Below, piece after piece: positions 4,610 to 17,524 of a stretch of DNA of 64,000 nucleotides. The DNA lies in the NCBI RefSeq assembly GCF_024448895.1, contig NZ_JAMOIC010000021.1:19095-83094 (forward strand), read 5' to 3'. The notes beneath the pieces are model-generated. The model saw only the letters and a list, made by a program, of their open reading frames with translations, did not search any database and had not been told where the DNA came from. The stretch's first letter is position 1. Each line of letters begins with the position of its first letter. Made by a program: the position numbers and the translations under genes. The stretch is from Stutzerimonas stutzeri (GTDB lineage: Bacteria > Pseudomonadota > Gammaproteobacteria > Pseudomonadales > Pseudomonadaceae).

Positions 4610-5920
4610 TCAGAACAGCAGGTTTGGCAGATACGTCGCGATCTCGGGGAAGACCATGATGATGCCCAGCCCGATGATGTTGACGATCACGAAGGGGATG
4701 ACCGACCAGTAGATGTCGCGCATGGTGATGCCTGGCGGCACGATGCCCTTCAGATAAAACAGGTTGAACCCGAACGGCGGCGTCATATAGCCGATCTCCA
4801 TGTTGATCACGAAGAGAATGCCGAACCAGATCGGGTCGAATCCCAGCGACGCCACGATGGGCAAGAACACCGGCAGCGTGATCAACATGATGCCCACCGG
4901 GTCGAGCAGCATGCCCATCAGGAACACTATGGCCATCATCGTGATGATGATGCCCCAGCGACCTCCGGGCAGATCCATCATCAACCCCTCGATCAGCGAC
5001 TGCGCACCCATGCCTTGATAGGCCGAGCTGAAGGCGTGGGCTGCGAACAGGATCCAGGCGATCATGCCCGTCAGTTTGAAGGTGCGGATAGCCGCTTCCT
5101 GAACGATCTCCCAATTGAGCTTGCGATAAACGGCTGCCGAGATCAGCGCACCGAGCACGCCCATGGCTGCGGCTTCGGTAGGCGTCGTCATGCCGCCGAT
5201 GATCGAGCCAAGCACCATCACCACGATGCCGATGGGCAGTATTACCGCACGGATCGCTCGTAGTTTGTCGCCCCAGCTGCCGCGTTCCTCTTTCGGCAGC
5301 GCGGGTGCCAGGTGTGGCTGGAAGAAGCAACGACCCAGTACATAGATAACCGTCAGCGCGACCAGCAAGATGCCCGGCAGAACGCCCGCAGCGAACATCT
5401 TGCCGACAGAGACGCCACTGATCATCGCGTAGAGGATCATCATGATGCTTGGCGGAATCAGGATGCCCCAGCCGCCGCCCGTATTGATGCAGCCAAGCAC
5501 CATGCGTTTGTCATAGCCACGCTCCAGCATTGCCGGCAGCGCGATGGTGCCCATGGCCACCACCGCAGCCCCGCTGATGCCGACCATCGCGCCGAAAATC
5601 GCGCAGATGCCCAAGGTGCCGACCGCCAGACCGCCGCGCATGCCGCCACACCAGAGGTGCATCATTCGATAGAGGTCGCGGGCTACCCCGGTGCGCTCCA
5701 GCAGCATGGCCATGAATACGAACAGCGGAATGGCCACCAGGGTGAAGCTTCCCATGGTGCCCCACATCTGCGAGGCCACCATGTAGAAAGCGTCGGCGCC
5801 CCAGGTGAAGTACAGAAACAGCACCGAGACGCCACCAAGCACGAAAGCCAGCGGCAGACCGAGTACCAGGAAAAAGATCAGCGATAGAAAGAACAGCAGC
5901 GTCGTGATCTCGATGCTCAT
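4610..5920 (-). CDS. TRAP transporter large permease (DctM family)
   Basis: Large membrane subunit of a tripartite ATP-independent periplasmic transporter; it carries the sodium-coupled transport path. The 436-residue product is almost entirely hydrophobic, with a dozen or so membrane segments and typical DctM motifs (GMVGISGAAVVAMG, GGGWGILIPPSIMMILY, TEAAAMGVLGALI). I chose ATG 5920 because it follows GAGGGG and overlaps the stop of the small permease gene by 4 bp (ATGA); the reading frame is open further upstream, but that stretch is not DctM-like. It is the last gene of a P-Q-M operon and ends at the shared terminator. The substrate is unknown; the divergent acyl-CoA operon suggests a carboxylic acid. 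Confidence 0.93.
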   Translation of the reverse strand: MSIEITTLLFFLSLIFFLVLGLPLAFVLGGVSVLFLYFTWGADAFYMVASQMWGTMGSFTLVAIPLFVFMAMLLERTGVARDLYRMMHLWCGGMRGGLAVGTLGICAIFGAMVGISGAAVVAMGTIALPAMLERGYDKRMVLGCINTGGGWGILIPPSIMMILYAMISGVSVGKMFAAGVLPGILLVALTVIYVLGRCFFQPHLAPALPKEERGSWGDKLRAIRAVILPIGIVVMVLGSIIGGMTTPTEAAAMGVLGALISAAVYRKLNWEIVQEAAIRTFKLTGMIAWILFAAHAFSSAYQGMGAQSLIEGLMMDLPGGRWGIIITMMAIVFLMGMLLDPVGIMLITLPVFLPIVASLGFDPIWFGILFVINMEIGYMTPPFGFNLFYLKGIVPPGITMRDIYWSVIPFVIVNIIGLGIIMVFPEIATYLPNLLF

Positions 5921-6462
5921 TTGTTCCCCTCCATGGAAGACTCGGGCAGATCCTTGCCGGGTTCCAGGTTCAGCGCCACGAGGATGTCTTGCAGCAGCTT
6001 TGCCACGCCCTGCAGAAGCAACAGGGCCGTGCCTATGGGAATGGCTAACTTGATCGGCCAGATCGGCGGGTTCCAGGCTGAGTAGGAGGTTTCCATGCTC
6101 TGAACCGACTCCCACGCCATGGAGCTACCGAAGTAAAGCAACGCGGCCATGAACAGAAAGAACATCGAGGAGGTAAAGATATCGACCCAGGCCTGAGTGC
6201 GGCGCGAGAGCGAGCTGTAAAGCAGGTCGACGTTGACGTGACCGCGTTGGGCCATCACATAGCCGCCGGAGAGGACGATATAGACGCCGAACAGCAATTG
6301 CCCGAGTTCGTTGGTCCACGAAGTCGGCGCAGAGAGTAGGTAGCGCATGAACACTTCGGCTATCAGCAGCAGGAAGATGACGAAGATCAGATACGCCGCC
6401 CAACGACCAATCAGGTTGTTCAGCCGCGTGATGCCGTTGATGTACGCATGAATGAGGCGCAT
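5917..6462 (-). CDS. TRAP transporter small permease (DctQ family)
   Basis: Small four-helix membrane subunit that partners DctM in TRAP transporters. The 181-residue product has hydrophobic segments at roughly 20-45, 55-75, 95-120 and 140-160 and the family signature RYLLSAPTSWTNELGQ in the first loop. The start ATG at 6462 has GGAG upstream; a longer open frame to 6504 is not needed. Its stop overlaps the DctM start by 4 bp, indicating translational coupling. It lies between the binding-protein gene (116 bp upstream) and the large permease. Confidence 0.93.
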   Translation of the reverse strand: MRLIHAYINGITRLNNLIGRWAAYLIFVIFLLLIAEVFMRYLLSAPTSWTNELGQLLFGVYIVLSGGYVMAQRGHVNVDLLYSSLSRRTQAWVDIFTSSMFFLFMAALLYFGSSMAWESVQSMETSYSAWNPPIWPIKLAIPIGTALLLLQGVAKLLQDILVALNLEPGKDLPESSMEGNK

Positions 6463-6578
6463 CGCTAACTCCAGGGCAGCATGGCGAATCGGGAGCGAAT
6501 TCACACCGGCGGCGCTCGCGCTGGCAGGCCTAGAGACCTGGCCAGTGCGAACGTCTGGTGCGCTGGCGAGCCGTCAGG

Positions 6579-7613
6579 TCAGAGGTAGCCGAGATCACCA
6601 AGCATGGTCTTGAGCATCTGCAGCGCCTTTGCGGCGTTGTCGCTGCGCTTGCCTTCGGCGTCCCAGGTCTTTTGCGCAATTTCCGTCAGACGCTTCTGCA
6701 CATCCTCGGGCAAGGTATTGACCTCGACGCCGTGCTCCTTGATGGCGTTGGAAAGAGCTATCTGCTCCTGATACAGGTACTCGTTGGTGCGGTACCAGAA
6801 CTGCTCATCCAGGACCTGCTTGACTGTCTCCTGGTCCTTCTCGGACAGGCCATCGAGCGCTTTCTGGCTGACGATGATCACATCGGTACCGGCGATATTG
6901 AGTGCCGGCTTGACGTGGTACTTGGTCACTTCATAGAAACTCATGCTCGCCGCGCCTTGTGCGGCACCCCAATGCGCGGCATCGACCACGCCGGTGTCCA
7001 GCGCGGGGTAGAGCTCACTGCCGGGCAGGAACGTGGTCGATGCGCCGGCTTCGCTCAAAAACTTCTGCAGCGCGCCGGAAGAGCGAATCTTCAGCTTGGT
7101 GAAATCTTCCCAGCTGTTGATCGGCTTCTTCACCACCATCTCGGTGGGGTAGACCTTGTCAGTGGACCAGTAGACGTTGTGCTTGGCAGCTTCCTCGCGA
7201 AGCATGTCTTCGAAGCCCATGTGTTTGTGGAAGTACGCGGCTTCCCAGACGTTGCGGAATGCGAAGGGCAGACCGGAGGCGATACCGGCCAAGCTTATTT
7301 TGTCCTGGGCGTAACCGGGCGAAATCGTGCCCATCTGCAAGATGCCGCGGCTGACAGCGTTGAACGTTTCCGTATCTTTGAACAGAGCACCGGCCTCGAA
7401 TAGCTGCAATTGCAAGCGGCCTTCGGTACGCCGTTCAAGCTCGGTCTTCAACCGAACAAGACTGTCTTTATAGGAACTGCTGGCGCTCGGCCAGTGGGAC
7501 TGGACGCGCCACTTGGTGACGTCCTGCGCGACGGCCAGCGGTGATGTCACCGCCGCCACTGCGAAAGCGACCAGGCTGGCCGGTACGAGTAGCTTCTTGA
7601 GCATGGATTTCAT
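6579..7613 (-). CDS. TRAP transporter periplasmic substrate-binding protein (DctP family)
   Basis: Captures the substrate in the periplasm and delivers it to the DctQM permease. The 344-residue precursor starts at ATG 7613 after AGAGGAC and has a clear signal peptide (MKSMLKKLLVPA... ending VAVAQ-like, cleavage near residue 29). The mature part matches the DctP fold: AGALFKDTETFNAVSRG, a 'W..FTKLKIRSSGA' segment, and DAAHWGAAQGAASM. The arginine in KIRSSGA is the position where DctP family members usually bind the substrate carboxylate, so an organic acid ligand is likely. It is the first gene of the P-Q-M operon and is divergent from the acyl-CoA gene cluster across 442 bp. Confidence 0.93.
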   Translation of the reverse strand: MKSMLKKLLVPASLVAFAVAAVTSPLAVAQDVTKWRVQSHWPSASSSYKDSLVRLKTELERRTEGRLQLQLFEAGALFKDTETFNAVSRGILQMGTISPGYAQDKISLAGIASGLPFAFRNVWEAAYFHKHMGFEDMLREEAAKHNVYWSTDKVYPTEMVVKKPINSWEDFTKLKIRSSGALQKFLSEAGASTTFLPGSELYPALDTGVVDAAHWGAAQGAASMSFYEVTKYHVKPALNIAGTDVIIVSQKALDGLSEKDQETVKQVLDEQFWYRTNEYLYQEQIALSNAIKEHGVEVNTLPEDVQKRLTEIAQKTWDAEGKRSDNAAKALQMLKTMLGDLGYL

Positions 7614-8055
7614 AACGCGTCCTCTTGTTGTAATTGTCTGGCTGCGGGCCATCTTTTGTATCACGTGTGTCGCATGCTTGTTTCGCACAGCAGAACTGAC
7701 TTTTGCAAAGCTGATCGAAAGCTAACATAGCTCGGGGCTTTTTCAAGCGCTAGCAGATAGCTATCGCTGCTTCTCTTGTCTTTCAGGTTGTGTCGGTTCG
7801 CTGGCTGCATGATGCCTTCCGGGCTCGCGGTTGAGCTTAGACGGTTCTGTTTGTGGGTCGTCATAATTCTGCCTGATGGAACTGGATTTCGAATTGACGC
7901 ATGGTTTCAAGCGTGCCAGCTTCAAAAGGGAGAGGACTCGCCACAAAAACAATCGAGAGACTCGCTATGCATTCAGGCATCCGCATCACTGACAGGACGG
8001 CACGGGTCCGCTTGCGCGACCTTCTCCGTCTTCTCCGGGCGGGGTAGGGCTGGCT
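7614..8055. other. 442-bp divergent intergenic region (TRAP operon / acyl-CoA operon)
   Basis: Holds the promoters of two divergent operons. It is visibly more AT-rich around 7640-7900 than the flanking genes. A TTGACG occurs at about 7893 on the plus strand without a convincing -10. No regulator gene or clear operator palindrome is seen, so control must come from elsewhere. A 26-codon open frame (7967-8047) sits just before the thioesterase gene. Confidence 0.6.
7967..8047 (+). CDS. possible 26-residue leader peptide
   Basis: ATG 7967 is preceded by GAGAG with a 7-nt gap and reads 26 codons to TAG 8045-8047, ending 8 nt before the thioesterase ATG. The peptide is rich in Arg and Leu (RLRDLLRLLRAG at its end). 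It could be a translation-coupled leader or chance; there is no homology evidence. Reported because of the ribosome-binding site and its exact placement. Confidence 0.2.
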   Translation: MHSGIRITDRTARVRLRDLLRLLRAG

Positions 8056-8559
8056 ATGGATCAACCCACAAGCGCAAACCCTTCTGAGGAACTACCGATC
8101 AGCGGCGGCAAGGACCTTCCCGGTTTCCATCAGGTGCTTGGCTATCGTCAGGTGTCCTGGACGGAAAACGAGGCGGTGATCGAGCTCGACGTGCAGGCCT
8201 GTCACCTGAACATGGGCGGCGTGCTTCACGGCGGAGTGATTACATCGCTGCTTGATGTGGTGCTGGCCGAAGCCGGCACCTACTGCCCTTATTCCGGCCG
8301 GGTGCGCAAAGCGATCACGCTGGTGCTCAACACCACCTTCACCGGGCAGTGCTCCGGTGGAGTGATCCGCGCCATCGGCAGGCGCCGCGCCGGGGGAAGC
8401 CGCATCTTCAACAGCTCGGGTGAAGTCCGTGACGCCGACGACCGGCTGCTTGCCATCGGCGAAGCGACGTTTCGTCTGCGTTCCGGCAGCGAGCAAGCGC
8501 AAGGCGTGCCCCTGGATTTCCTTACCCATAACAACAACAAGGAACACGGCGATGTATGA
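8056..8559 (+). CDS. PaaI-type hotdog-fold acyl-CoA thioesterase
   Basis: Predicted to hydrolyse acyl-CoA thioesters, releasing CoA, in the cytoplasm. The 167-residue product carries the hotdog-fold signature [18 protein letters not shown], with the GGVLHGG turn of the PaaI/YbgC-like thioesterases, and a terminal strand near GEATFRLR. It is the first gene of a compact plus-strand operon and overlaps the acyl-CoA dehydrogenase gene by 8 bp, so the two are probably translationally coupled. In a catabolic operon it may rescue CoA from dead-end intermediates or release a final product. The natural substrate cannot be deduced. Confidence 0.85.
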
Positions 8560-9763
8560 ACTGACCGGTAAAGCGCTGGAGCTCCAGCAACAGCTCACGG
8601 CATTCATGGACGAGCATATCTACCCCAACGAGCACGTTTTCCATGAGCAGGTCGCCACGGCCAGCAATCGCTGGGCGCCACCGCCGATTCTTGAAGAGCT
8701 GAAGCTCAAGGCCCGGGCGCAGGGCTTGTGGAACCTGTTTCTCCCGGAAAGTGAACATGGCGCCGGACTGTCCAATTTCGAGTACGCCCATCTCTGCGAA
8801 ATCATGGGCCGCTCCCATGTTGCGTCCGAAGTCTTCAACTGCTCCGCACCGGATACCGGCAACATGGAAGTGCTCGCGCGCTACGGCACCCCGGAGCAGC
8901 AGGAACAATGGCTCAAGCCGTTGCTTGAGGGCGAAATACGCTCCTGCTTTTCAATGACCGAACCCGAGGTGGCTTCGTCCGATGCCACCAATATCGCCTG
9001 CGAAATCCGTCGCGACGGTGATGAATACGTCATCAACGGGCGCAAATGGTGGTCGTCCGGAGCGATGACCACGACCTGCAAGATCGCCATCGTCATGGGC
9101 AAGACCGACCCCGGCGCGGAACGGCATCGCCAGCAATCGATGATCCTCGTTCCGCTGGACACCCCAGGCGTCGAGATCATTCGGGCGCTCAACGTGTTCG
9201 GTTACGACCACGCACCCCACGGGCACGCCGAAATCCACTACGACAACGTTCGCGTACCGGCCAGCAACATGCTGCTCGGTGAAGGCCGTGGTTTCGAAAT
9301 CGCACAGGGGCGTCTTGGCCCGGGCCGTATCCACCATTGCATGCGCACCATCGGCGTGGCCGAGCGGGCCTTGCAGGCCATGTGTGAGCGCGTACATGAG
9401 CGGGTTGCTTTCGGCAAACCGCTGTCGGACTTCGACTCGATCCGCAAAGACATCGCCCGCTCGCGCATCGAGATCGAACAGACACGCCTGCTGACGCTGA
9501 AAGCCGCGCGGATGATGGACACCGTCGGCAACAAGGTGGCGCGGCAGGAGATCGCCATGATCAAGGCTGCGGCCCCGAGCATGGCGCTGCGCGTGCTGGA
9601 CCGTGCGATCCAGGTCCATGGCGCCAAGGGCGTCTCTCAGGACAGCTTTCTCGCTGCTGCCTGGGCCCACCAACGGACGCTGCGACTGGCCGACGGCCCG
9701 GACGAAGTGCATCTGGACACCATCGCCAAGCTCGAATTGAAGAACTATTCCAGCAAGCGCTGA
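8552..9763 (+). CDS. acyl-CoA dehydrogenase, ACAD11-type
   Basis: FAD enzyme of the acyl-CoA dehydrogenase fold, 403 residues from ATG 8552. Its sequence follows the dehydrogenase half of vertebrate ACAD10/ACAD11 very closely: [58 protein letters not shown], and ADGPDEVHL near the C-terminus. ACAD10/11, and LvaC in bacterial levulinate catabolism, act on a phosphorylated 4-hydroxyacyl-CoA and eliminate the phosphate. Here the partner kinase is a separate gene two positions downstream. It overlaps the thioesterase gene by 8 bp and is 35 bp from the SDR gene. The earlier in-frame ATG at 8420 lies inside the thioesterase gene and is rejected. Confidence 0.93.
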
Positions 9764-9798
9764 GCGCCTGATAACACCAACAAGAAGGACGAAGCCAG

Positions 9799-10566
9799 AT
9801 GACCAATCCGCTGTTCGATCTGACCGGAAAGGTGGCACTGATTACCGGCTCCACCCGCGGCATCGGCCGCTCCATTGCCGAGGAAATGGCCAAATGCGGC
9901 GCGCGGGTCGTGATTTCCAGCCGCAAAGCTGACGCCTGCGACGCCGTTGCCGCTGAGCTGAATGCCGCTGGCTACGAGGCCATCGCAGTGCCTTGCCATG
10001 TGGGTCGCAAGGAAGACCTGCAGCGGCTGGTAGACACGACCCTGCAAACCTGGGGACGCATCGACGTGCTGGTCTGTAACGCGGCCACCAATCCGGTATA
10101 CGGCCCCACCGGCGAGCTGACCGACGACGCCTGGGACAAGATCATGGACACCAACGTCAAGGGCACCTTCTGGCTCTCGAACATGGTGTTGCCGCAGATG
10201 GCCGAGCGTGGCGAGGGGGTGGTGATCATGCTTTCCAGCATTGCCGGATTGCGCGGCAACACTGTGATCGGCACCTATGGTGTATCCAAGGCGGCCGAGG
10301 CGGCGCTGGCCCGCAATCTCGCGGCCGAGTGGGGCCCCAAGGGCATCCGCGTCAATGCTATTGCACCGGGGCTCGTACGTACCGATTTCGCCAAAGCGTT
10401 GCTGGATGATCCGGAGCGGGTCCGCCGCGCCGCAGAAAAAACGCCGTTGCGCCGGATTGGTGAACCGGTGGATATCGCCGGCCTTGCTGTATTTCTGGCA
10501 GCGCCCGCCAGCGCCTATATCACCGGCCAGGTGATCGTTGCAGACGGCGGTGAAACTGCATGCTGA
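9799..10566 (+). CDS. short-chain dehydrogenase/reductase
   Basis: NAD(P)-dependent oxidoreductase of the classical SDR family, 255 residues. The cofactor motif is TGSTRGIG (about 16-23), followed by an NAA turn (CNAATNP), the catalytic Ser in MLSSIAG and the YGVSK active-site motif. The C-terminal ITGQVIVADGGE closes the fold. Position between the dehydrogenase and the kinase suggests that it oxidises a hydroxyacyl-CoA, or reduces a ketoacyl-CoA to the hydroxy form needed by the kinase (the role proposed for LvaD-type proteins). Start ATG 9799 follows AAGGACG. Direction and substrate are inference. Confidence 0.92.
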   Translation: MTNPLFDLTGKVALITGSTRGIGRSIAEEMAKCGARVVISSRKADACDAVAAELNAAGYEAIAVPCHVGRKEDLQRLVDTTLQTWGRIDVLVCNAATNPVYGPTGELTDDAWDKIMDTNVKGTFWLSNMVLPQMAERGEGVVIMLSSIAGLRGNTVIGTYGVSKAAEAALARNLAAEWGPKGIRVNAIAPGLVRTDFAKALLDDPERVRRAAEKTPLRRIGEPVDIAGLAVFLAAPASAYITGQVIVADGGETAC

Positions 10567-10576
10567 GGGCGTGGCA

Positions 10577-11647
10577 ATGAACGAACCCGAGCTGATCGAC
10601 GTACTGCCGGCGCATCGGTTAGATGAACCGGCGCTGGCGCGATACCTGCGCAACCACCTGCCAGGCATTGGCGACGAACTGAATGTTCGCCAGTTTCAGG
10701 GCGGGCAGTCCAACCCCACTTATTTGTTGGAAAGCGCCGGGCGGCGTTACGTGTTGCGCAAGAAACCGCCGGGCAAGGTGCTGCCGTCGGCGCACATGGT
10801 CGAGCGCGAATACAAGGTGATCCGCGCGCTTTCGGAACACAGCCGCGTGCCGGTGCCCTCGGTGCATCTCTTATGCGAAGACGAAACCGTAATCGGCACC
10901 GCTTTCTATGTCATGGATCACGTCGAAGGGCGGATCTTCAGCCATCCGGCGCTGGACGAGTTGGCTGTTGCCGAGCGCGAGCCGATTCACATGGCAGCCA
11001 TCGATACGCTGGCCGCATTGCATCAGGTCGACGTAGAGGCCGTGGGGCTGGGTGATTTCGGCAAGGCCCAAGGGTATTTCGCCCGTCAGGTAAAGCGCTG
11101 GTCCGGTCAGTATCAGGCGTCCCGCACCGACGACATGCCGTCGATGGAAAGTCTCATGCAATGGCTGCCGGAGCAGATCCCGCAGCGTGACGAATGCGCC
11201 ATCGCCCATGGAGATTACCGACTAGGCAATCTGATCTTCGATCCAGCCGAGCCAAGGGTAGCGGCGATTCTCGACTGGGAGCTTTCCACCATCGGTCATC
11301 CACTGGCGGACCTTGCTTACTTCTGCCTGCCGTATCACTTGCCTGCTGGCGTGGAGGGCTTGCGCGGCTTGGTCGGGCTCGATCTGCAGGCGTTGGGTAT
11401 TCCGTCCGAGCAGCAGGTGCTGGCGCGTTACTGCCAGCAGAGCGGACGCGGTTCCATTGCTGACTGGCATGTCTTCGTCGCGTTTTCGCTGTTCCGGCTC
11501 GCGGCGATTCTTCAGGGTGTGTACGCGCGGGCCTTGCAGGGCAATGCCAGTAATGCCGATGCGTTGCAGGTCGGGCAGCGCGCCGGTCTGCTTGCCGACG
11601 CCGGTTGGCGGATCGCCCAGAGCGGCGGCAGCGGGGTGACCCCATGA
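10577..11647 (+). CDS. APH-fold small-molecule kinase, ACAD11 N-terminal-domain type
   Basis: A 356-residue protein of the aminoglycoside phosphotransferase fold. It has GGQSNPTY (nucleotide loop), YVLRKKPPGK (ATP lysine), FYVMDHVEG (hinge), the catalytic HGDYRLGN at about 211-218 and the metal-binding LDWE at 232-235. These details are those of the kinase half of ACAD10/ACAD11 and of LvaA, which phosphorylate the hydroxyl of 4-hydroxyacyl-CoA, and not of drug-resistance kinases. ATG 10577 is chosen over the earlier ATG 10538, which lies inside the SDR gene. It is 10 bp after the SDR stop and overlaps surE by 4 bp (ATGA). Together with the ACAD gene it would make the two-step dehydroxylation module. 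Confidence 0.9.
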   Translation: MNEPELIDVLPAHRLDEPALARYLRNHLPGIGDELNVRQFQGGQSNPTYLLESAGRRYVLRKKPPGKVLPSAHMVEREYKVIRALSEHSRVPVPSVHLLCEDETVIGTAFYVMDHVEGRIFSHPALDELAVAEREPIHMAAIDTLAALHQVDVEAVGLGDFGKAQGYFARQVKRWSGQYQASRTDDMPSMESLMQWLPEQIPQRDECAIAHGDYRLGNLIFDPAEPRVAAILDWELSTIGHPLADLAYFCLPYHLPAGVEGLRGLVGLDLQALGIPSEQQVLARYCQQSGRGSIADWHVFVAFSLFRLAAILQGVYARALQGNASNADALQVGQRAGLLADAGWRIAQSGGSGVTP

Positions 11648-12447
11648 ATGCGCCGTTGCTGCGTCGTGTCCTGCTGACCAACGATGACGGCATTGCCGCG
11701 CCGGGTCTGGCATTGCTCGAACGAATCGCCGCGCAACTGGCAGAGGAAGTCTGGGTAGTCGCGCCCGAGCACGACCAGAGCGGCACAGGACAGGGCATCT
11801 CGGTGCATGCGCCGTTGCGCGTGTATCACCATGGCGAGCGGCGCTTCGCCGTTTCCGGCACACCGTCCGACTGCGTGATGTTCGCAATGGCCGAATGGCT
11901 GCAGGACTCGCCGCCTGACTTGGTGCTGTCCGGCGTCAACAGCGGAGCGAATATCGGCGACTCGGTGCCTTACTCGGGCACCCTCGGTGCGGTTCTCAGC
12001 GCCGACCTGCTCGGTGTGCCGGCCATCGGTCTTAGCCAGGCCTTTCTGGACCGCACACTGATCGACTGGTCCTGCGTAGAAACCTACGCCGCCGTCACGA
12101 TCCGCGCGCTCTGGGCGCGTCGTGAAGAAAACGGTTGTTGCTGGAATGTGAATTTCCCGGCTTGCCCGGCTGGCGCCGTCAGCCATCTGCGGATGACCCG
12201 GCAATCCCGCGGTTCGATCACCCGACCGCGTTTGCAGGCCGGCCACGATGGTCGCGGTCTGCCGTACTGGTGGCTTGGGTTCGAACACTCATCCGCCCAT
12301 ATCACCGACCCCGAACTCGACGTTACGGCGTTGCGCGCGAAACGCATCGCCATCACGCCGCTGCGCGATACCCGGTGCTGGCTCGAGTGGGGCGAAGAGC
12401 GGGCACTGGCCGATCTGGCCGTCAATTGTGATTCAGGAGCTCAGTAA
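11644..12447 (+). CDS. surE: SurE family nucleotidase/phosphatase
   Basis: SurE proteins are metal-dependent phosphomonoesterases acting on nucleoside 5'/3'-monophosphates and short polyphosphate. The 267-residue product has the metal site LLTNDDG near the N-terminus, the conserved Ser in EHDQSGTGQG, SGTPSDCV and the GVNSGANIGD Asn motif, so the active site looks intact. It starts by 4-bp overlap with the kinase gene and ends in a 1-bp overlap (TAATG) with the acyl-CoA synthetase gene. It is therefore embedded in the acyl-CoA operon, not beside pcm/rpoS where the ordinary pseudomonad surE lies. It could dephosphorylate a phosphoacyl intermediate or recycle nucleotides; this is speculation. 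Confidence 0.9.
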   Translation: MNAPLLRRVLLTNDDGIAAPGLALLERIAAQLAEEVWVVAPEHDQSGTGQGISVHAPLRVYHHGERRFAVSGTPSDCVMFAMAEWLQDSPPDLVLSGVNSGANIGDSVPYSGTLGAVLSADLLGVPAIGLSQAFLDRTLIDWSCVETYAAVTIRALWARREENGCCWNVNFPACPAGAVSHLRMTRQSRGSITRPRLQAGHDGRGLPYWWLGFEHSSAHITDPELDVTALRAKRIAITPLRDTRCWLEWGEERALADLAVNCDSGAQ

Positions 12448-14129
12448 TGTTCACTCGTCATCATGGGGTCTGGCCTGAAGATCTGCCCAAGCACCTGACC
12501 GTTCCGGAAACCAGCCTGTTCAACAATCTCGAAGTCTCCGCGCGCCGCTATCCGGACAAGACGGCGATCATCTTCTACGACACCCTGATCACCTACACCG
12601 AGCTGTTGCGCGAGGTTGAAGCGCTGGCCGGTTACCTGCAACACCTGGGCGTGGCCAAGGGTGATCGGGTGTTGCTGTACATGCAGAACTCGCCGCAGTT
12701 CACCATCGCCTACTACGCGATCCTGCGCGCGGATGCCGTGGTGATCCCGGTCAACCCGATGAACCACAGCGCCGAGCTGGAGCACTACCTGCACGACACT
12801 GGCGCGGCCCTGTGCCTCTGTGGGCAGGAGCTCACCGGCTTTATCTCGCCCCTGGTCGGCACAGCGCAGTTGCGCCATGTCGTCGTTGCGGCTTACTCGG
12901 AATACCTTCGCCAGCCCACCGATCTTGCGCTGCCAGCCGAGGTGCGGGCACCAGCCGTAGCGCCGGCTTTCACTGGCGGCATCGCCTGGAGCGAAGCCCT
13001 GCGCGCCGGTCACAAGGCGGGATCGCACACGGCTGGTCCGGACGACCTGTGCGTGTTCCCTTACAGCTCAGGCACCACGGGCGCGCCGAAAGGCTGCATG
13101 CATACCCACCGCTCCGCCATGGCAACCATCATCCATCGCGTGGTCTGGACCAACAGCACCAGCGAATCGGTGATCCTCGCGACGCTGCCGTACTTTCACG
13201 TCACCGGCATGCAAGGCGCCATGAGCGGGCCGATCTACAACGGTGGCACCGCGGTCATCATGACCCGCTGGGACCGCACGGTCGCGGCCCAGCTGATCGA
13301 GCGACACAAGGTGACCGGCTGGGTGAACATCGCCACCATGGCCATCGATTTCCTCTCCGATCCCGATGTCGAGCGCTACGACCTGTCCAGCCTGGTCAGT
13401 GTGGGTGGCGGTGGTGCCGCGATGCCCAAGGCCGTGGAGGAGAAGCTGCATCGGCTCACTGGTCTTCGTTATATCGAAGGCTATGGGCTGTCGGAAACCA
13501 TTGCGGCCACCCACATCAACCCAGTGCCGCGACCCAAAGCGCAATGCCTCGGCATCCCGGTATTCGATGTTGACAGCCGCGTCATCGACCTGAGTGACCA
13601 GCGGGAGCTCGGCCCCAATGAAGTAGGCGAGATCGTCAGCCGCGGCCCGCAGCTGTTCCAGGGTTACTGGAACCGTCCGGAAGAGACCGAGCGCGCCTTC
13701 ATCGAACTGGACGGCCACAGGTTTTTCCGCACCGGCGATATGGGCTACTACGATGAAGAGGGCTATTTCTTCCTCGTCGACCGGGTCAAGCGGATGATCA
13801 ACGCCTCCGGTTTCAAGGTCTGGCCATCGGAAGTCGAAAGCCTGATGTACCGCCACCCGGCGATTCAGGAGTGCTGCGTCATTTCCTGCCCCGATCCCAA
13901 GCGCGGCGAGACGGTTAAGGCCTGTGTGGTATTGCGCAACGGCCAGGCTGGGCTGGTCAGCGAGCAGGACATCATCGACTGGTGCAAGGCGGAAATGGCT
14001 GCCTACAAGGCGCCGGTATACGTGGAGTTCGTCGCGTCGTTGCCACGTTCGTCAACCGGCAAGTTGATGTGGCGCACCTTGCAGGAAGAGGAGAACCGCA
14101 AACACGCCAGTCGCGCTCAAGAGGCCTGA
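12447..14129 (+). CDS. acyl-CoA synthetase (AMP-forming)
   Basis: Activates a carboxylic acid to its CoA thioester through an acyl-adenylate. The 560-residue product has the full set of adenylate-forming motifs: YSSGTTGAPKG (A3 P-loop), EGYGLSET (A5), FFRTGDMGYYDEEG (A7), DRVKRMINASGFKV (A8) and the C-terminal lysine in SSTGKLMWR (A10). Length suits a medium/long-chain or branched acyl ligase. It starts one base inside the surE stop, so it is translationally coupled in the operon. It probably supplies the CoA ester for the downstream dehydrogenase/kinase module (the LvaE role). Chain length cannot be predicted from these motifs. Confidence 0.92.
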   Translation: MFTRHHGVWPEDLPKHLTVPETSLFNNLEVSARRYPDKTAIIFYDTLITYTELLREVEALAGYLQHLGVAKGDRVLLYMQNSPQFTIAYYAILRADAVVIPVNPMNHSAELEHYLHDTGAALCLCGQELTGFISPLVGTAQLRHVVVAAYSEYLRQPTDLALPAEVRAPAVAPAFTGGIAWSEALRAGHKAGSHTAGPDDLCVFPYSSGTTGAPKGCMHTHRSAMATIIHRVVWTNSTSESVILATLPYFHVTGMQGAMSGPIYNGGTAVIMTRWDRTVAAQLIERHKVTGWVNIATMAIDFLSDPDVERYDLSSLVSVGGGGAAMPKAVEEKLHRLTGLRYIEGYGLSETIAATHINPVPRPKAQCLGIPVFDVDSRVIDLSDQRELGPNEVGEIVSRGPQLFQGYWNRPEETERAFIELDGHRFFRTGDMGYYDEEGYFFLVDRVKRMINASGFKVWPSEVESLMYRHPAIQECCVISCPDPKRGETVKACVVLRNGQAGLVSEQDIIDWCKAEMAAYKAPVYVEFVASLPRSSTGKLMWRTLQEEENRKHASRAQEA

Positions 14130-14190
14130 GGACAGCGAATGAACGAGTGCCATGCGCCACGGGCACCTACGTAACCACTGGAGCAAAGCT

Positions 14191-14937
14191 ATGCAAGATT
14201 CAACTTCAACGAATCGGGAAGCGGAATGGCAGGTGCGCAAGGACCTCGCTGCAGCCTATCGCCTGGTGGCGCATTTCGGCTGGGACGATCTGGTGTTCAC
14301 TCACCTGTCGGCACGCGTGCCGGGCCCAGAGCATCATTTCCTGATCAACCCCTACGGCCTGCTGTTTCAGGAGATCACGGCCTCGTCCCTGGTGAAAGTG
14401 GATCGCGAGGGTCAGATCGTCCAGAGCGGCAGCCTGCATCGTGTCAATCCGGCGGGCTTTACCATCCACAGCGCCATTCACATGGGGCGTGAAGATGCCG
14501 GCGCGGTGATGCATCTGCACGCCGCGGACGGTACGGCGGTTTCCGCCCACCGCGACGGCCTGCTGCCACTGAGTCAGACGGCGATGCTCTGTCTCGATCA
14601 CATCAGTTACCACGAATACGAAGGCGTCGCGCTGGATCTGACCGAGCGCGAGCGGTTGATCCGCGACCTGGGCAGCAAGCAAATGATGATCTTGCGCAAT
14701 CATGGTGTGCTCACCGCTGGTAGCACCGTCGCCGAAGCCTTCACCTACCTGTATTTCCTGATGAAGGCCTGTGAGATCCAGGTGCGCGCCCAGTCGTGCG
14801 GGCCGACGCACATGCCCTCGGCTGCAGCCATCGAAACGACCCGTCAGCAATCGGCTGAACTCGGCATGGCCGCCAAGCTCACCTGGCCAGCCCTGTTGCG
14901 TCTGCTGGAGGCCAACGGCCACGTCTATGCGATTTAG
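14191..14937 (+). CDS. class II aldolase/adducin family protein
   Basis: A 248-residue zinc-dependent aldolase/epimerase-fold protein. Zinc ligands are visible as the HLH pair in VMHLHAADG and the later histidine in LRNHGVLT; the N-terminal region WDDLVFTHLSAR and FLINPYGLLF are typical of the family. ATG 14191 follows GGAG at good spacing; an upstream ATG at 14152 is rejected. It sits 61 bp after the acyl-CoA synthetase and 72 bp before a hydroxyacid dehydrogenase. Family members cleave or epimerise sugar phosphates, or act on short hydroxy-acid chains; the exact reaction is unknown. In this context a retro-aldol step on a hydroxylated acid is possible. Confidence 0.88.
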   Translation: MQDSTSTNREAEWQVRKDLAAAYRLVAHFGWDDLVFTHLSARVPGPEHHFLINPYGLLFQEITASSLVKVDREGQIVQSGSLHRVNPAGFTIHSAIHMGREDAGAVMHLHAADGTAVSAHRDGLLPLSQTAMLCLDHISYHEYEGVALDLTERERLIRDLGSKQMMILRNHGVLTAGSTVAEAFTYLYFLMKACEIQVRAQSCGPTHMPSAAAIETTRQQSAELGMAAKLTWPALLRLLEANGHVYAI

Positions 14938-15009
14938 CGGTAGGCTGAGGCGATCACTTGTCCGCCCCCGAGGCGGACGGTCATTCATCCGAGCAAAAGC
15001 AGAACGCCC

Positions 15010-15939
15010 ATGAAAATCCTCTTTGGTGCCGCCGATCCCAAGCCCGAGCGCTGGACCAGTCTGATCCAGCAGCATCTGCCTGAGGCTGACATTCAGGTCT
15101 GGCATTCGGACATGCCGAGCTGCGGGGCCGACTACGCCATCGTCTGGCATCCGCCGGCCGCGCTGTTCGACAAGGAGCCTCATCTCAAAGCCGTGTTCAA
15201 CCTGGGCGCGGGCGTCGATGCGTTGGTCCAGGTGCCCAACCTGCCGCGCGACATTCCGGTGGTGCGTCTTGAGGACGCTGGTATGTCCGTGCAGATGGCT
15301 GAGTACGTCGCTTATCACGCAATCGGCATCAGCCGGGACATGGATTTTTACCGTGAGCAACAAGCCGAGAAGCAATGGAAACTGCGACGCCCCATCGAAC
15401 GCAGCGAGTGGCCCATCGGCGTGCTCGGCCTCGGCCAGATCGGCCAGCGTGTCGCCCGCACACTGGCCGGGCTGGATTACCCGGTGAGCGGCTGGGCTCG
15501 CTCCGCGCATGCTCTGGACGGCGTACGCAGCTTTGCCGGCGCTGCCGAACTCGACGGCTTTCTTGGCGAGACACGCGTGCTGGTCAACATGCTGCCCTTG
15601 ACCGAGAGCACGCGAGACCTCATCGACTATTCATTGCTCGCGAAGCTCAGGCCCGACGCCGTGGTGATCAATGTCGGTCGCGGCGAACATCTGGTAGACG
15701 AGGATCTTTGCCGAGCTATTGAAGAGGGGCGAGTCGCGCGCGCCGTGCTCGATGTGTTTCGTGAGGAGCCGCTGCCTACGTCGCACCCGTTCTGGCAGAT
15801 GCCGCAGGTCACCATCACGCCCCACGTCTCGGCGCGCACCTTGCGCGAGGCCACCATTGCTCAGATCACCGACAAGATTCTCGCCCTGGAACAAGGGCAG
15901 TCCATCAGCGGCATCGTCGACGTCCAGCGCGGCTATTGA
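15010..15939 (+). CDS. D-2-hydroxyacid dehydrogenase (GhrA-like glyoxylate/hydroxypyruvate reductase)
   Basis: NAD(P)H-dependent 2-ketoacid reductase, 309 residues. The nucleotide-binding motif is GVLGLGQIGQRVA, preceded by the substrate-side loop GAGVDAL. The catalytic triad positions are the Arg in NVGRGEHL, the Glu in REEPLP and the His in TPHVSARTL. The shape is that of GhrA, which reduces glyoxylate and hydroxypyruvate. It is the last gene of the plus-strand run and could process a two- or three-carbon product of the aldolase. It ends 31 bp before a convergent acyl-CoA synthetase gene, and no clear hairpin terminator is seen between them. Confidence 0.92.
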   Translation: MKILFGAADPKPERWTSLIQQHLPEADIQVWHSDMPSCGADYAIVWHPPAALFDKEPHLKAVFNLGAGVDALVQVPNLPRDIPVVRLEDAGMSVQMAEYVAYHAIGISRDMDFYREQQAEKQWKLRRPIERSEWPIGVLGLGQIGQRVARTLAGLDYPVSGWARSAHALDGVRSFAGAAELDGFLGETRVLVNMLPLTESTRDLIDYSLLAKLRPDAVVINVGRGEHLVDEDLCRAIEEGRVARAVLDVFREEPLPTSHPFWQMPQVTITPHVSARTLREATIAQITDKILALEQGQSISGIVDVQRGY

Positions 15940-15970
15940 TCCATTCCGTCACGGCGCAGGCGGGCGTCCT

Positions 15971-17524
15971 TCAGTCCGCCGCGCCGTCCTCAGAAAGATA
16001 CCGATCCCGTAACTCGCGCTTGAGCACCTTGCCAATGGCGCTTCGTGGCAGCTCATCGATTAATTCAAGGCGGGCCAAGCGCTGGGTTTTGCCGACACGG
16101 TCGTTGAACCAGCTCAGCAGCGCTTCGGGTGCGTGGGTTGCGTCAGACGCGAGGACGACAAAAGCTACCGGCGTTTCTCCCCAGCGCGTCGAAGCCACGC
16201 CGACCACGGCCACGTCCCCGATGGCCGGATGCTCCCGCAGGATGGCTTCGAGATCGCTCGGGTACAGGTTGAAGCCGCCGGAGATGATCATGTCCTTCTT
16301 GCGATCGAGCAGCGTGAGGAAGCCCTCGGCATCGAAGCGGCCGACGTCGCCGGTGCGGATGAAGCGCTTGCCGCTCGGGTCGAACCACTCGGCTTCGGCG
16401 GTCTTCTCGGGTTTGTTCAGGTAGCCGGTCATCATCGCCGGGGAATGCCCGACGATCTCGCCGATAGCGCCTTCAGGCAGCTCGTTACCGGCATCGTCGA
16501 TCACACGGATGTCATGTCCCTCGGCTGGCTTGCCGACGGTGTGCAATTTGTCCGGATGCTCATGGGCTGCAAGGATGCAGGTGCCGCCGCCTTCGGTCAT
16601 GCCATAGGTGTCGATCAACCCGCCCGGCCAGCGCGCCAGAACATCCGCCTTCAGCGCTGCACTGAACGGCGCGCTGGTGCACATCTTGTAGCGGAAGTGG
16701 CTGAGGTCGTATTGATCGAAGTCGTCGTGGGCCATGATCCGCTGGTACTGCACCGGCACCAGCATGGTGTGCGTGACCGCGTGCCGCTGCGCCAGGCTCA
16801 GATATTCCCCGGCGTCGAACTTGGGCATCAGCACTACGGTGCCGCCGAGGGCCAGCGTCGGCAGAAAGGCCACCAGCGTGGTATTCGAGTACAACGGCGT
16901 GGAGATCAGCGTCGTGGCGTTGTCGCCGTACCCGTAGGCAGCGCTGCGCCGCAGGTGCGCCCAGCGCATGGCATGGGATTGCACGATGCCCTTGGGCTCG
17001 CCTGTGGTGCCCGAGGAATAGATGATGTTGAACGCCCATTCCGGCTGGATCTCGACCGGCTCCGGTGCGGAATCGCTGAGCCAGTCCGCCAGTGTCGACG
17101 ACTGATCCAGGCGCAGGAAAGGGCAGGGTAGTCGGCTGGAGACCCGCTTCAGATGCTCCGCTGCGTTCGCGTCGAGGAAGACCAGCCGAGGCGAGGCGTC
17201 GGCCAGCATCGTCAGCAGACTTTCGGGACTTGCCGAAGGGGCCAGTGGCGCGACGGCGACACCGGCCCGCAAAGCGCCGAGAAACACCGCGGCGTACTCA
17301 ATGGAGTTGTACGCACAGATAGCAAGCACGTCGTCCGGCTTCGCGCCGTCACGTTGCAGCGCCGCCGCAACGCGGCTCATGTAACGGTCGAGTTGGGCAA
17401 AACTCAGCGTGCGGTCGTCCTGGATCAGCGCGGGATGATCTGGCTGATGCTTTGCCCAGTATGCGATCAGATCGGGAACTGCAGCGAAGGGTTGATCCAG
17501 ATCGACGGCGTCGTAGGTTTCCAT
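15971..17524 (-). CDS. second acyl-CoA synthetase (AMP-forming)
   Basis: Adenylate-forming ligase of 517 residues from ATG 17524. Motifs are YSSGTTGEPKG (A3), DTYGMTEGGG (A5), FIRTGDVGRFDAEG (A7), DRKKDMIISGGFN (A8) and SAIGKVLKREL (A10, lysine present). It is not a close copy of the synthetase at 12447 (different A5 and A8 surroundings), so it probably accepts a different acid. The open frame runs to 17671, but the N-terminus METYDAVDLDQPF fits the family better; the ribosome-binding site is weak. It converges on the operon and has its own promoter region of about 284 bp shared with a divergent small gene. Confidence 0.9.
   Translation of the reverse strand: METYDAVDLDQPFAAVPDLIAYWAKHQPDHPALIQDDRTLSFAQLDRYMSRVAAALQRDGAKPDDVLAICAYNSIEYAAVFLGALRAGVAVAPLAPSASPESLLTMLADASPRLVFLDANAAEHLKRVSSRLPCPFLRLDQSSTLADWLSDSAPEPVEIQPEWAFNIIYSSGTTGEPKGIVQSHAMRWAHLRRSAAYGYGDNATTLISTPLYSNTTLVAFLPTLALGGTVVLMPKFDAGEYLSLAQRHAVTHTMLVPVQYQRIMAHDDFDQYDLSHFRYKMCTSAPFSAALKADVLARWPGGLIDTYGMTEGGGTCILAAHEHPDKLHTVGKPAEGHDIRVIDDAGNELPEGAIGEIVGHSPAMMTGYLNKPEKTAEAEWFDPSGKRFIRTGDVGRFDAEGFLTLLDRKKDMIISGGFNLYPSDLEAILREHPAIGDVAVVGVASTRWGETPVAFVVLASDATHAPEALLSWFNDRVGKTQRLARLELIDELPRSAIGKVLKRELRDRYLSEDGAAD

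Follow-up and report, generated by a model that had tools for sequence, protein, structure and literature searches.

The mammalian enzymes of the phospho-elimination route for 4-hydroxy acids were assigned only in 2024-2025 (PMC11342911; PMC12440821), and the free 4-phosphohexanoate that was seen in mammalian cells was attributed to hydrolytic cleavage of the CoA adduct (PMC11342911). In bacteria, related enzymes are encoded by the lva operon (lvaABCDE) of Pseudomonas putida; in Pseudomonas citronellolis, a histidine phosphatase gene adjoins that of the LvaA homologue, and lvaB was reported as not found there (PMC6692424). Here we describe a locus at positions 4610 to 17524 of a 64,000-nucleotide stretch of the Stutzerimonas stutzeri genome (assembly GCF_024448895.1, contig NZ_JAMOIC010000021.1, positions 19,095 to 83,094), which is referred to as the window and in which a kinase and a dehydrogenase of the ACAD11 type are encoded together with a SurE-type phosphatase. 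As a variant of the ACAD11/Lva route the locus is real and well defined, and what is new about it is the phosphatase partner rather more than the aldolase and reductase alongside. We consider it fairly likely that it encodes a pathway of the split ACAD11 type that acts on 4-hydroxy or 4-keto acids and includes a dedicated phosphatase, which probably clears dead-end 4-phospho acids.

A split ACAD11-type kinase and dehydrogenase

Protein families were called with Pfam and NCBIfam, and structural relatives were sought in the PDB. In the latter search, the dehydrogenase matched ACAD11 (8v3u) with 497 bits and 4hr3 with 466 bits, the best ordinary acyl-CoA dehydrogenase (ACAD) reaching 141 bits, and the kinase matched 3dxp (367 bits), ACAD11 (298 bits) and 9o56 (212 bits), with the next match at 58 bits. 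Identity to ACAD11 amounts to 60.1% over 386 residues for the dehydrogenase and 43.2% over 340 residues for the kinase. For the ACAD domain of ACAD11, the key residues named are R626, H634 and R637 (HCMR motif), the catalytic D753 and, as a general one, R631; for the kinase domain they are D220, N225, R86 and R176 (PMC12440821). Their numbering could be fixed because two deposited ACAD11 mutants show Ala at D220 and Asn at D753. When the dehydrogenase is aligned with ACAD11, the equivalents of R626, R631, H634, C635, M636, R637 and D753 are all identical, R254 corresponding to R626, H262-C263-M264-R265 to H634-R637 and D381 to D753. In the kinase, D213, N218 and R170 correspond to D220, N225 and R176, i.e. 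the catalytic Asp, the assisting Asn and the CoA-contacting Arg. R86, which is described as neighbouring the alpha-C glutamate, was not placed; by the numbering used, position 86 is Phe in ACAD11 and Tyr here, with an Arg-Glu pair just before it in both proteins. The original prediction that the two proteins match the halves of ACAD11 is thus borne out at 43% and 60% identity with the catalytic residues kept, and by sequence both are assigned to the ACAD10/11-Lva families, beyond a generic family match. Because all of the key residues except R86 were placed and are identical and the PDB matches point to ACAD11, phosphorylation and phosphate elimination by this pair are predicted by homology, and this prediction is well supported.

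A SurE protein as probable dedicated partner of the kinase

The gene immediately downstream of the kinase encodes a SurE protein with NDDG and SGxNxGxN, the catalytic motifs of the SurE family; among 24 SurE proteins compared, SGxNxGxN is present in all and NDDG in 22. Of 56 genomes of the genus, 23 encode the kinase (E <= 1e-80), and every one of these, but not a single one of the remaining 33, also has SurE of the operon type (74-100% identity, plus a fragment at a contig end in genome G022). It adjoins the kinase in 22 of the 23. A canonical SurE, 30-35% identical to the operon protein, is encoded elsewhere and was found in 55 of the 56 genomes, the one without a match being G022, which is 71% complete. 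Outside the genus set, 24 further genomes were picked by hand, ten of them with a close kinase (65-71% identity), five of which had already been mapped beforehand; all ten have a SurE of 60-65% identity alongside. Within family f18, placed alongside Marinobacter by the tree, operon-type SurE is present in all six genomes with a close kinase and was not found in the four that have a distant kinase alone.

Several observations weigh against so close a tie. In G001, a distant member of the genus, SurE is encoded on a separate contig, next to the second synthetase and a short-chain dehydrogenase/reductase (SDR) (loci L220 and L221), the match reading through one TGA. In G175, a genome of family f40 and the sole such case among the other 14 hand-picked genomes, operon-type SurE (58%) and a more distant kinase are separated by about 24 kb. 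The SurE of the window itself passes the NCBIfam SurE equivalog model with 259 bits against a cut-off of 233. Finally, in f40, a family placed with Alloalcanivorax, four genomes (G094, G237, G125 and G217) show operon-type SurE alone at E <= 1e-10 and no canonical one; because no other SurE is seen in these four, the operon-type protein may do the ordinary SurE job in f40. With these exceptions stated, SurE is probably a dedicated partner of the kinase.

Unrelated phosphatases beside related kinases

Gene maps were drawn for 183 loci, comprising 80 loci of relatives, three paralogue regions of the host genome and 100 picked regions, mostly one per genome, from the match lists of an order search (kinase at E <= 1e-50 in 133/245 genomes) and a phylum search (E <= 1e-60 in 78/249). 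One locus (L150) gave no kinase call, so that counts refer to 182 loci, or to 162 after removal of 20 near-duplicates. Within four genes of the kinase and in the same-strand run, a histidine phosphatase is present in 36 of the 182 loci and SurE in 24, both together in none. As a further point against a general requirement, 122 loci have neither, and in the phylum-search regions (n=40) only four histidine phosphatases and no SurE were counted, so that linkage of a phosphatase to the kinase is by no means universal; in the order-search regions (n=59) the numbers are 27 and 5. Because the two sets of regions differ in this way, the association between phosphatase and kinase is strong in Pseudomonadales and weak elsewhere.

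All five histidine phosphatases tested match PF00300, and 42 of 44 found by profile, some of them not beside a kinase, have RH[GAS] near the start. The profile recovered 61 of 1033 genes within three genes of a kinase and 7 of 942 further off (44/893 and 7/715 after near-duplicates and L005-L017 had been dropped), a comparison that leans towards linked proteins since the profile was built from the kinase-locus cluster. The base rate of PF00300 is free of this bias, but the 20 order genomes used for it were chosen after the maps had been seen. They gave 93 match rows, or about 85 genes after split rows had been joined by eye, 20 of which lie within 2 kb of a kinase of listed place (27 of 29 kinases had one). 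Among five kinases in previously unseen surroundings, three have a PF00300 gene nearby (in G298, G081 and G257, not in G101 and G149); the rough chance expectation is about 0.5% per kinase at about four PF00300 genes per 4 Mb. The genome of the window has four PF00300 matches, one of them beside a second kinase on contig 6 (L108), a paralogue of 35% identity with the histidine phosphatase two genes away. L108 also holds an SDR and a small protein of an SCP2-like cluster, and no ACAD was labelled within the mapped 4.2 kb on either side of the kinase. Genome G072 likewise has two kinases, one with SurE and the other with a histidine phosphatase.

A third phosphatase family turned up unsought in L042, from a metagenome-assembled genome named Luteimonas, in which the kinase neighbour is a ComB-type 2-phosphosulfolactate phosphatase (PF04029, 145 bits). 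The name of the ComB family refers to a phosphorylated hydroxy acid. In the family of L042, the ComB-type gene occurs in four of 99 genomes, its own included, and in all four it directly adjoins the kinase, with a divergent ACAD of the ACAD11 type on its other side (L042, L214, L215 and L216). Among 274 gammaproteobacterial genomes, ComB relatives (E <= 1e-15) were found in two, neither with a kinase within about 1.5 kb on each side. For the loci without a linked phosphatase, 64 neighbour proteins were scanned from 117 candidates of 140-320 residues, and the best 25 of 85 family tallies were considered, so that weaker phosphatase matches may have been missed. Clusters c37, c70, c220 and c133 were rejected as phosphatases, being Crp-like, DSBA, TetR and DSBA proteins, respectively. 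A bacterial counterpart of the HAD domain of ACAD10 was also sought by motif within four genes of the kinase and was discarded: HAD-like starts occur in nine loci, eight on the opposite strand and the ninth in a protein of 472 residues.

A quick maximum-likelihood tree was computed for 165 kinases; 21 named loci and all kinases shorter than 270 residues were left out, and LvaA was not included. In it, two changes of label suffice for the SurE-linked kinases, which form one set together with the ACAD11 kinase and others. For the histidine phosphatases ten changes are needed, at least nine of which are dictated by starred branches, and this label is seen on either side of the deepest split. The window kinase lies in the ACAD11-like half and 9o56 and the lva-like loci in the other; the branches of ACAD11 and 9o56 are long, so that their placement is unsure. 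Unrelated phosphatase families, namely SurE, histidine phosphatase and ComB-type, recur beside this type of kinase, and this may point to a clean-up step of the pathway that has been overlooked.

Proposed pathway and alternative explanations

Gene content, residue conservation, co-occurrence and the recurrence of unrelated phosphatase families are direct observations, and they are compatible with the following sequence of steps. The TRAP (tripartite ATP-independent periplasmic) system would import a carboxylic acid, the synthetase downstream of SurE would form the CoA thioester, and the SDR would interconvert the 4-keto and 4-hydroxy forms at C4. By homology, the kinase is expected to phosphorylate the 4-hydroxyl group and the dehydrogenase to eliminate the phosphate, giving a 2-enoyl-CoA for beta-oxidation. 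The assignment of the substrate, like the two roles that follow, is drawn from context. The thioesterase would release CoA from stalled thioesters and, when it cuts 4-phosphoacyl-CoA, would yield an off-pathway 4-phospho acid; SurE most likely dephosphorylates such acids, so that the acid could be activated again. Clean-up of free 4-phospho acids is favoured because 4-phosphohexanoate was seen in mammalian cells, thioesterases recur near the kinase, the ComB family owes its name to a phosphorylated hydroxy acid and the catalytic motifs are kept.

The main rival is that SurE is a regulatory or structural partner which restrains or stabilises the kinase and the catalysis of which is not needed. 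Such a role would have parallels in the HAD domain of ACAD10, which lowers kinase output and was described as having negligible phosphatase activity (PMC11342911), in LvaB, which was pulled down with LvaA, and in the histidine phosphatase gene of P. citronellolis, which adjoins the kinase gene in a cluster reported to have no lvaB (PMC6692424); the 4-base overlap (ATGA) between the SurE start and the kinase stop would also fit. However, unlike the ACAD10 HAD domain, the histidine phosphatases and SurE proteins have kept their catalytic motifs at the frequencies given above, and three unrelated families are more easily explained by shared chemistry than by shared binding. We therefore regard a regulatory or structural role of this kind as unlikely.

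It is equally doubtful that the locus is in effect an lva operon with levulinate or 4-hydroxyvalerate as substrate and SurE as an inconsequential neighbour. All four lva enzyme types (synthetase, SDR, kinase and ACAD) are indeed present, but the kinase falls into the ACAD11-like half of the quick tree without LvaA, apart from 9o56 and from loci of the P. citronellolis-like order kinase-histidine phosphatase-SDR; no small lvaB-like gene, sigma-54 regulator or symporter was called in 4610-17524, and the co-occurrence of SurE is too strict for a passenger.

The neighbourhood evidence would be identical if SurE acted on the on-pathway 4-phosphoacyl-CoA and thereby set the balance of hydroxy and phospho forms as an overflow control, and the P. 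citronellolis authors proposed that the histidine phosphatase may remove phosphate from 4-phosphovaleryl-CoA (PMC6692424); the ACAD10 authors, too, at first expected such a role of the HAD domain, for which they found negligible activity (PMC11342911). Control of this kind would amount to a futile ATP cycle, however, and the thioesterases near the kinase point to free acids instead, which makes this explanation improbable. That SurE is an ordinary nucleotidase without a pathway link, brought here by chance gene order, agrees with its score in the NCBIfam 5'/3'-nucleotidase SurE model but is very unlikely, since the gene order is kept across several families and its presence follows the kinase while genomes of the genus maintain a canonical SurE of their own elsewhere.

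Clean-up of dead-end 4-phospho acids by SurE may be one instance of a wider pattern. It is conceivable, and put forward tentatively, that 4-hydroxyacyl-CoA kinases commonly need a phosphatase against such acids, that phosphatases were recruited at least three times (SurE, histidine phosphatase and ComB-type) and that the HAD domain of ACAD10 is a worn-down fourth, in which catalysis has given way to restraint. If a phosphatase is a regular partner in many bacteria, the fate of free 4-phospho acids of the kind seen in cells would be explained. In that case the HAD domain of ACAD10, as yet unexplained, could also be studied in a bacterial system, and engineers who adapt the route to levulinate or lactones would have a further gene to include. 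The SurE family, known as stationary-phase nucleotidase, would then have a second, pathway-specific job.

Organisation and distribution of the locus

The host genome comprises 5.39 Mb in 78 contigs, and the closest named relatives of the operon are mostly Stutzerimonas. All genes named in the original prediction are open reading frames (ORFs) with the coordinates listed in Table 1, and a codon-usage gene caller returned the identical set, so that the kinase and dehydrogenase lie in one run with SDR and synthetase as described, the TRAP genes being divergent. No tRNA was found in the window, nor any Rfam family at gathering score.

Table 1 Genes of the locus with position in the window, strand and supporting match
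Gene product	Position	Strand	Support
TRAP large permease (DctM)	4610..5920	-	TIGR00786 331.8 bits, cut-off 268
TRAP small permease (DctQ)	5917..6462	-	between DctM and DctP; weak NCBIfam match, 20 bits
TRAP solute-binding protein (DctP)	6579..7613	-	NF037995 103 bits, cut-off 50
Hotdog-fold acyl-CoA thioesterase	8056..8559	+	TIGR00369 51 bits, cut-off 36.6
ACAD11-type acyl-CoA dehydrogenase, LvaC counterpart	8552..9763	+	497 bits to ACAD11
SDR, LvaD counterpart	9799..10566	+	PF13561 223 bits
ACAD11-type kinase (APH fold), LvaA counterpart	10577..11647 (longer start possible, 10538)	+	298 bits to ACAD11 kinase domain
Second, operon-specific SurE phosphatase	11644..12447	+	PF01975 182 bits
AMP-forming acyl-CoA synthetase, LvaE counterpart	12447..14129	+	NF006181 878 bits, cut-off 705
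Class II aldolase/adducin protein	14191..14937 (or from 14152)	+	NF005451 359 bits, cut-off 207
GhrA-like 2-hydroxyacid dehydrogenase	15010..15939	+	NF012013 274 bits, below cut-off 403
Second acyl-CoA synthetase, convergent	15971..17524	-	PF00501 262 bits

Among the 80 loci of relatives, ten long ones belong to the genus of the window (two of them named Pseudomonas). TRAP, ACAD, SDR, kinase, SurE, synthetase, aldolase and GhrA are present in all ten, thioesterase and second synthetase in nine each. Three Marinobacter loci and one Vreelandella locus have kept TRAP and the order thioesterase-ACAD-SDR-kinase-SurE-synthetase, three Alloalcanivorax/Alcanivorax loci the order SDR-kinase-SurE-synthetase, and an Alkalilimnicola locus ACAD-SDR-kinase-SurE with a SurE of 48% identity. 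Identities for SDR, kinase, SurE and synthetase range from 61 to 84% in the Marinobacter, Vreelandella and Alloalcanivorax loci, and in these as in Stutzerimonas the synthetase comes after SurE. The divergent TRAP system of the original prediction also stands beside the module in Marinobacter and Vreelandella, DctM being 80-83% identical in L016, L018 and L022 and DctQ being likewise conserved beside the module. The core across genera is therefore SDR-kinase-SurE-synthetase, usually with dehydrogenase, thioesterase and TRAP. Two observations sit uneasily with a fixed pathway: no ACAD lies near the kinase in the three Alloalcanivorax/Alcanivorax loci, and the locus of G002 consists of TRAP, SDR, kinase, SurE and synthetase, without thioesterase, ACAD, aldolase and GhrA. 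G002 is one of four distant members of the genus, three of which were mapped and one (G014) left out; G052 has all but the second synthetase in the stretch examined, and the G001 locus is without SurE and second synthetase.

In the 162 dereplicated loci, the commonest partners within three genes of the kinase in the same-strand run are SDR (75) and the ACAD cluster (71, ordinary ACADs included), followed by histidine phosphatase (33), synthetase (21) and SurE (13), and then by three clusters tied at 12 each, one of which is the thioesterase. A thioesterase of the operon cluster or the TesB type is found within four genes in the same-strand run of the kinase in 24 of the 182 loci, near-duplicates included, and half of these loci belong to the genus of the window or lie near it.

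The remaining genes behave differently from this core. In three Marinobacter loci the aldolase is on the other strand, away from the module, and in two of them a synthetase of 46-47% identity lies upstream on the other strand; GhrA is restricted to loci of the genus of the window among the 80, and the convergent second synthetase was seen solely in this genus among the mapped loci. Aldolase, GhrA and second synthetase were therefore ruled out as later steps of one path, as they do not co-travel outside the genus, and the complete route from uptake to central metabolism that had been claimed is not supported, the more so as G002 has neither aldolase nor GhrA. Of the exact gene set proposed for a neighbourhood survey, the series SDR-kinase-SurE-synthetase recurs across genera, and these three genes do not accompany it outside the genus.

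From TRAP to the second synthetase, the genes form an accessory block of about 13 kb at a fixed site, because the flanking genes adjoin without it in genomes of the genus that have no operon: in all seven readable cases (L225-L231) they are 0.04-1.6 kb apart, with no match to the proteins of the block between them. In an eighth such genome (G031), which was left out, a flanking gene gave no match. The block is bordered by a QEGLA-motif gene on one side and by a small ORF and ompA on the other.

As to transport, the closest solved structure to DctP (2zzv) scores 98 bits, too low for a substrate to be named, and ligand assignment by structural likeness was given up. In loci of Marinobacter, Vreelandella and Alloalcanivorax (L015 and L017-L021), genes for permeases of the branched-chain ATP-binding cassette (ABC) type (PF02653 for L021) come after that of the synthetase and represent a second type of importer near the module. 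The closest solved relative of the SDR is DHRS4 (212 bits), a peroxisomal carbonyl reductase. Since ACAD11 is also peroxisomal (PMC12440821), DHRS4 might act together with it.

Comparison with known systems

A literature search at the level of listings and the opening lines of abstracts, in which subscription journals were mostly outside the scope, found no paper on SurE or ComB beside such kinases, nor on the general pattern. With ACAD11 and ACAD10 the locus has both catalytic domains in common (60% and 43% identity to ACAD11 for ACAD and kinase, respectively). In ACAD11, kinase and dehydrogenase are fused in one chain, whereas here they are the products of two genes with the SDR gene between them; ACAD10 has a HAD domain, whereas the operon has none but contains SurE and a thioesterase. 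With the P. putida lva operon it shares the kinase, ACAD, SDR and synthetase types (lvaA, lvaC, lvaD and lvaE), also in one run. In place of LvaB or a histidine phosphatase it has SurE and in place of the ActP-like symporter a TRAP system, and neither LvaF/LvaG transport genes nor a regulator like the sigma-54 type LvaR are among the genes called in 4610-17524; the kinases of lva-like loci lie in another part of the tree. As to the claim that lva operons have no SurE, aldolase or TRAP partner, a phosphatase partner as such was already known from the P. citronellolis version, in which one of the histidine type instead of SurE stands beside the kinase (PMC6692424). Canonical SurE, the 5'/3'-nucleotidase, has family and motifs in common with the operon SurE; that of the genus is 30-35% identical and encoded elsewhere, whereas the operon SurE is tied to the kinase.

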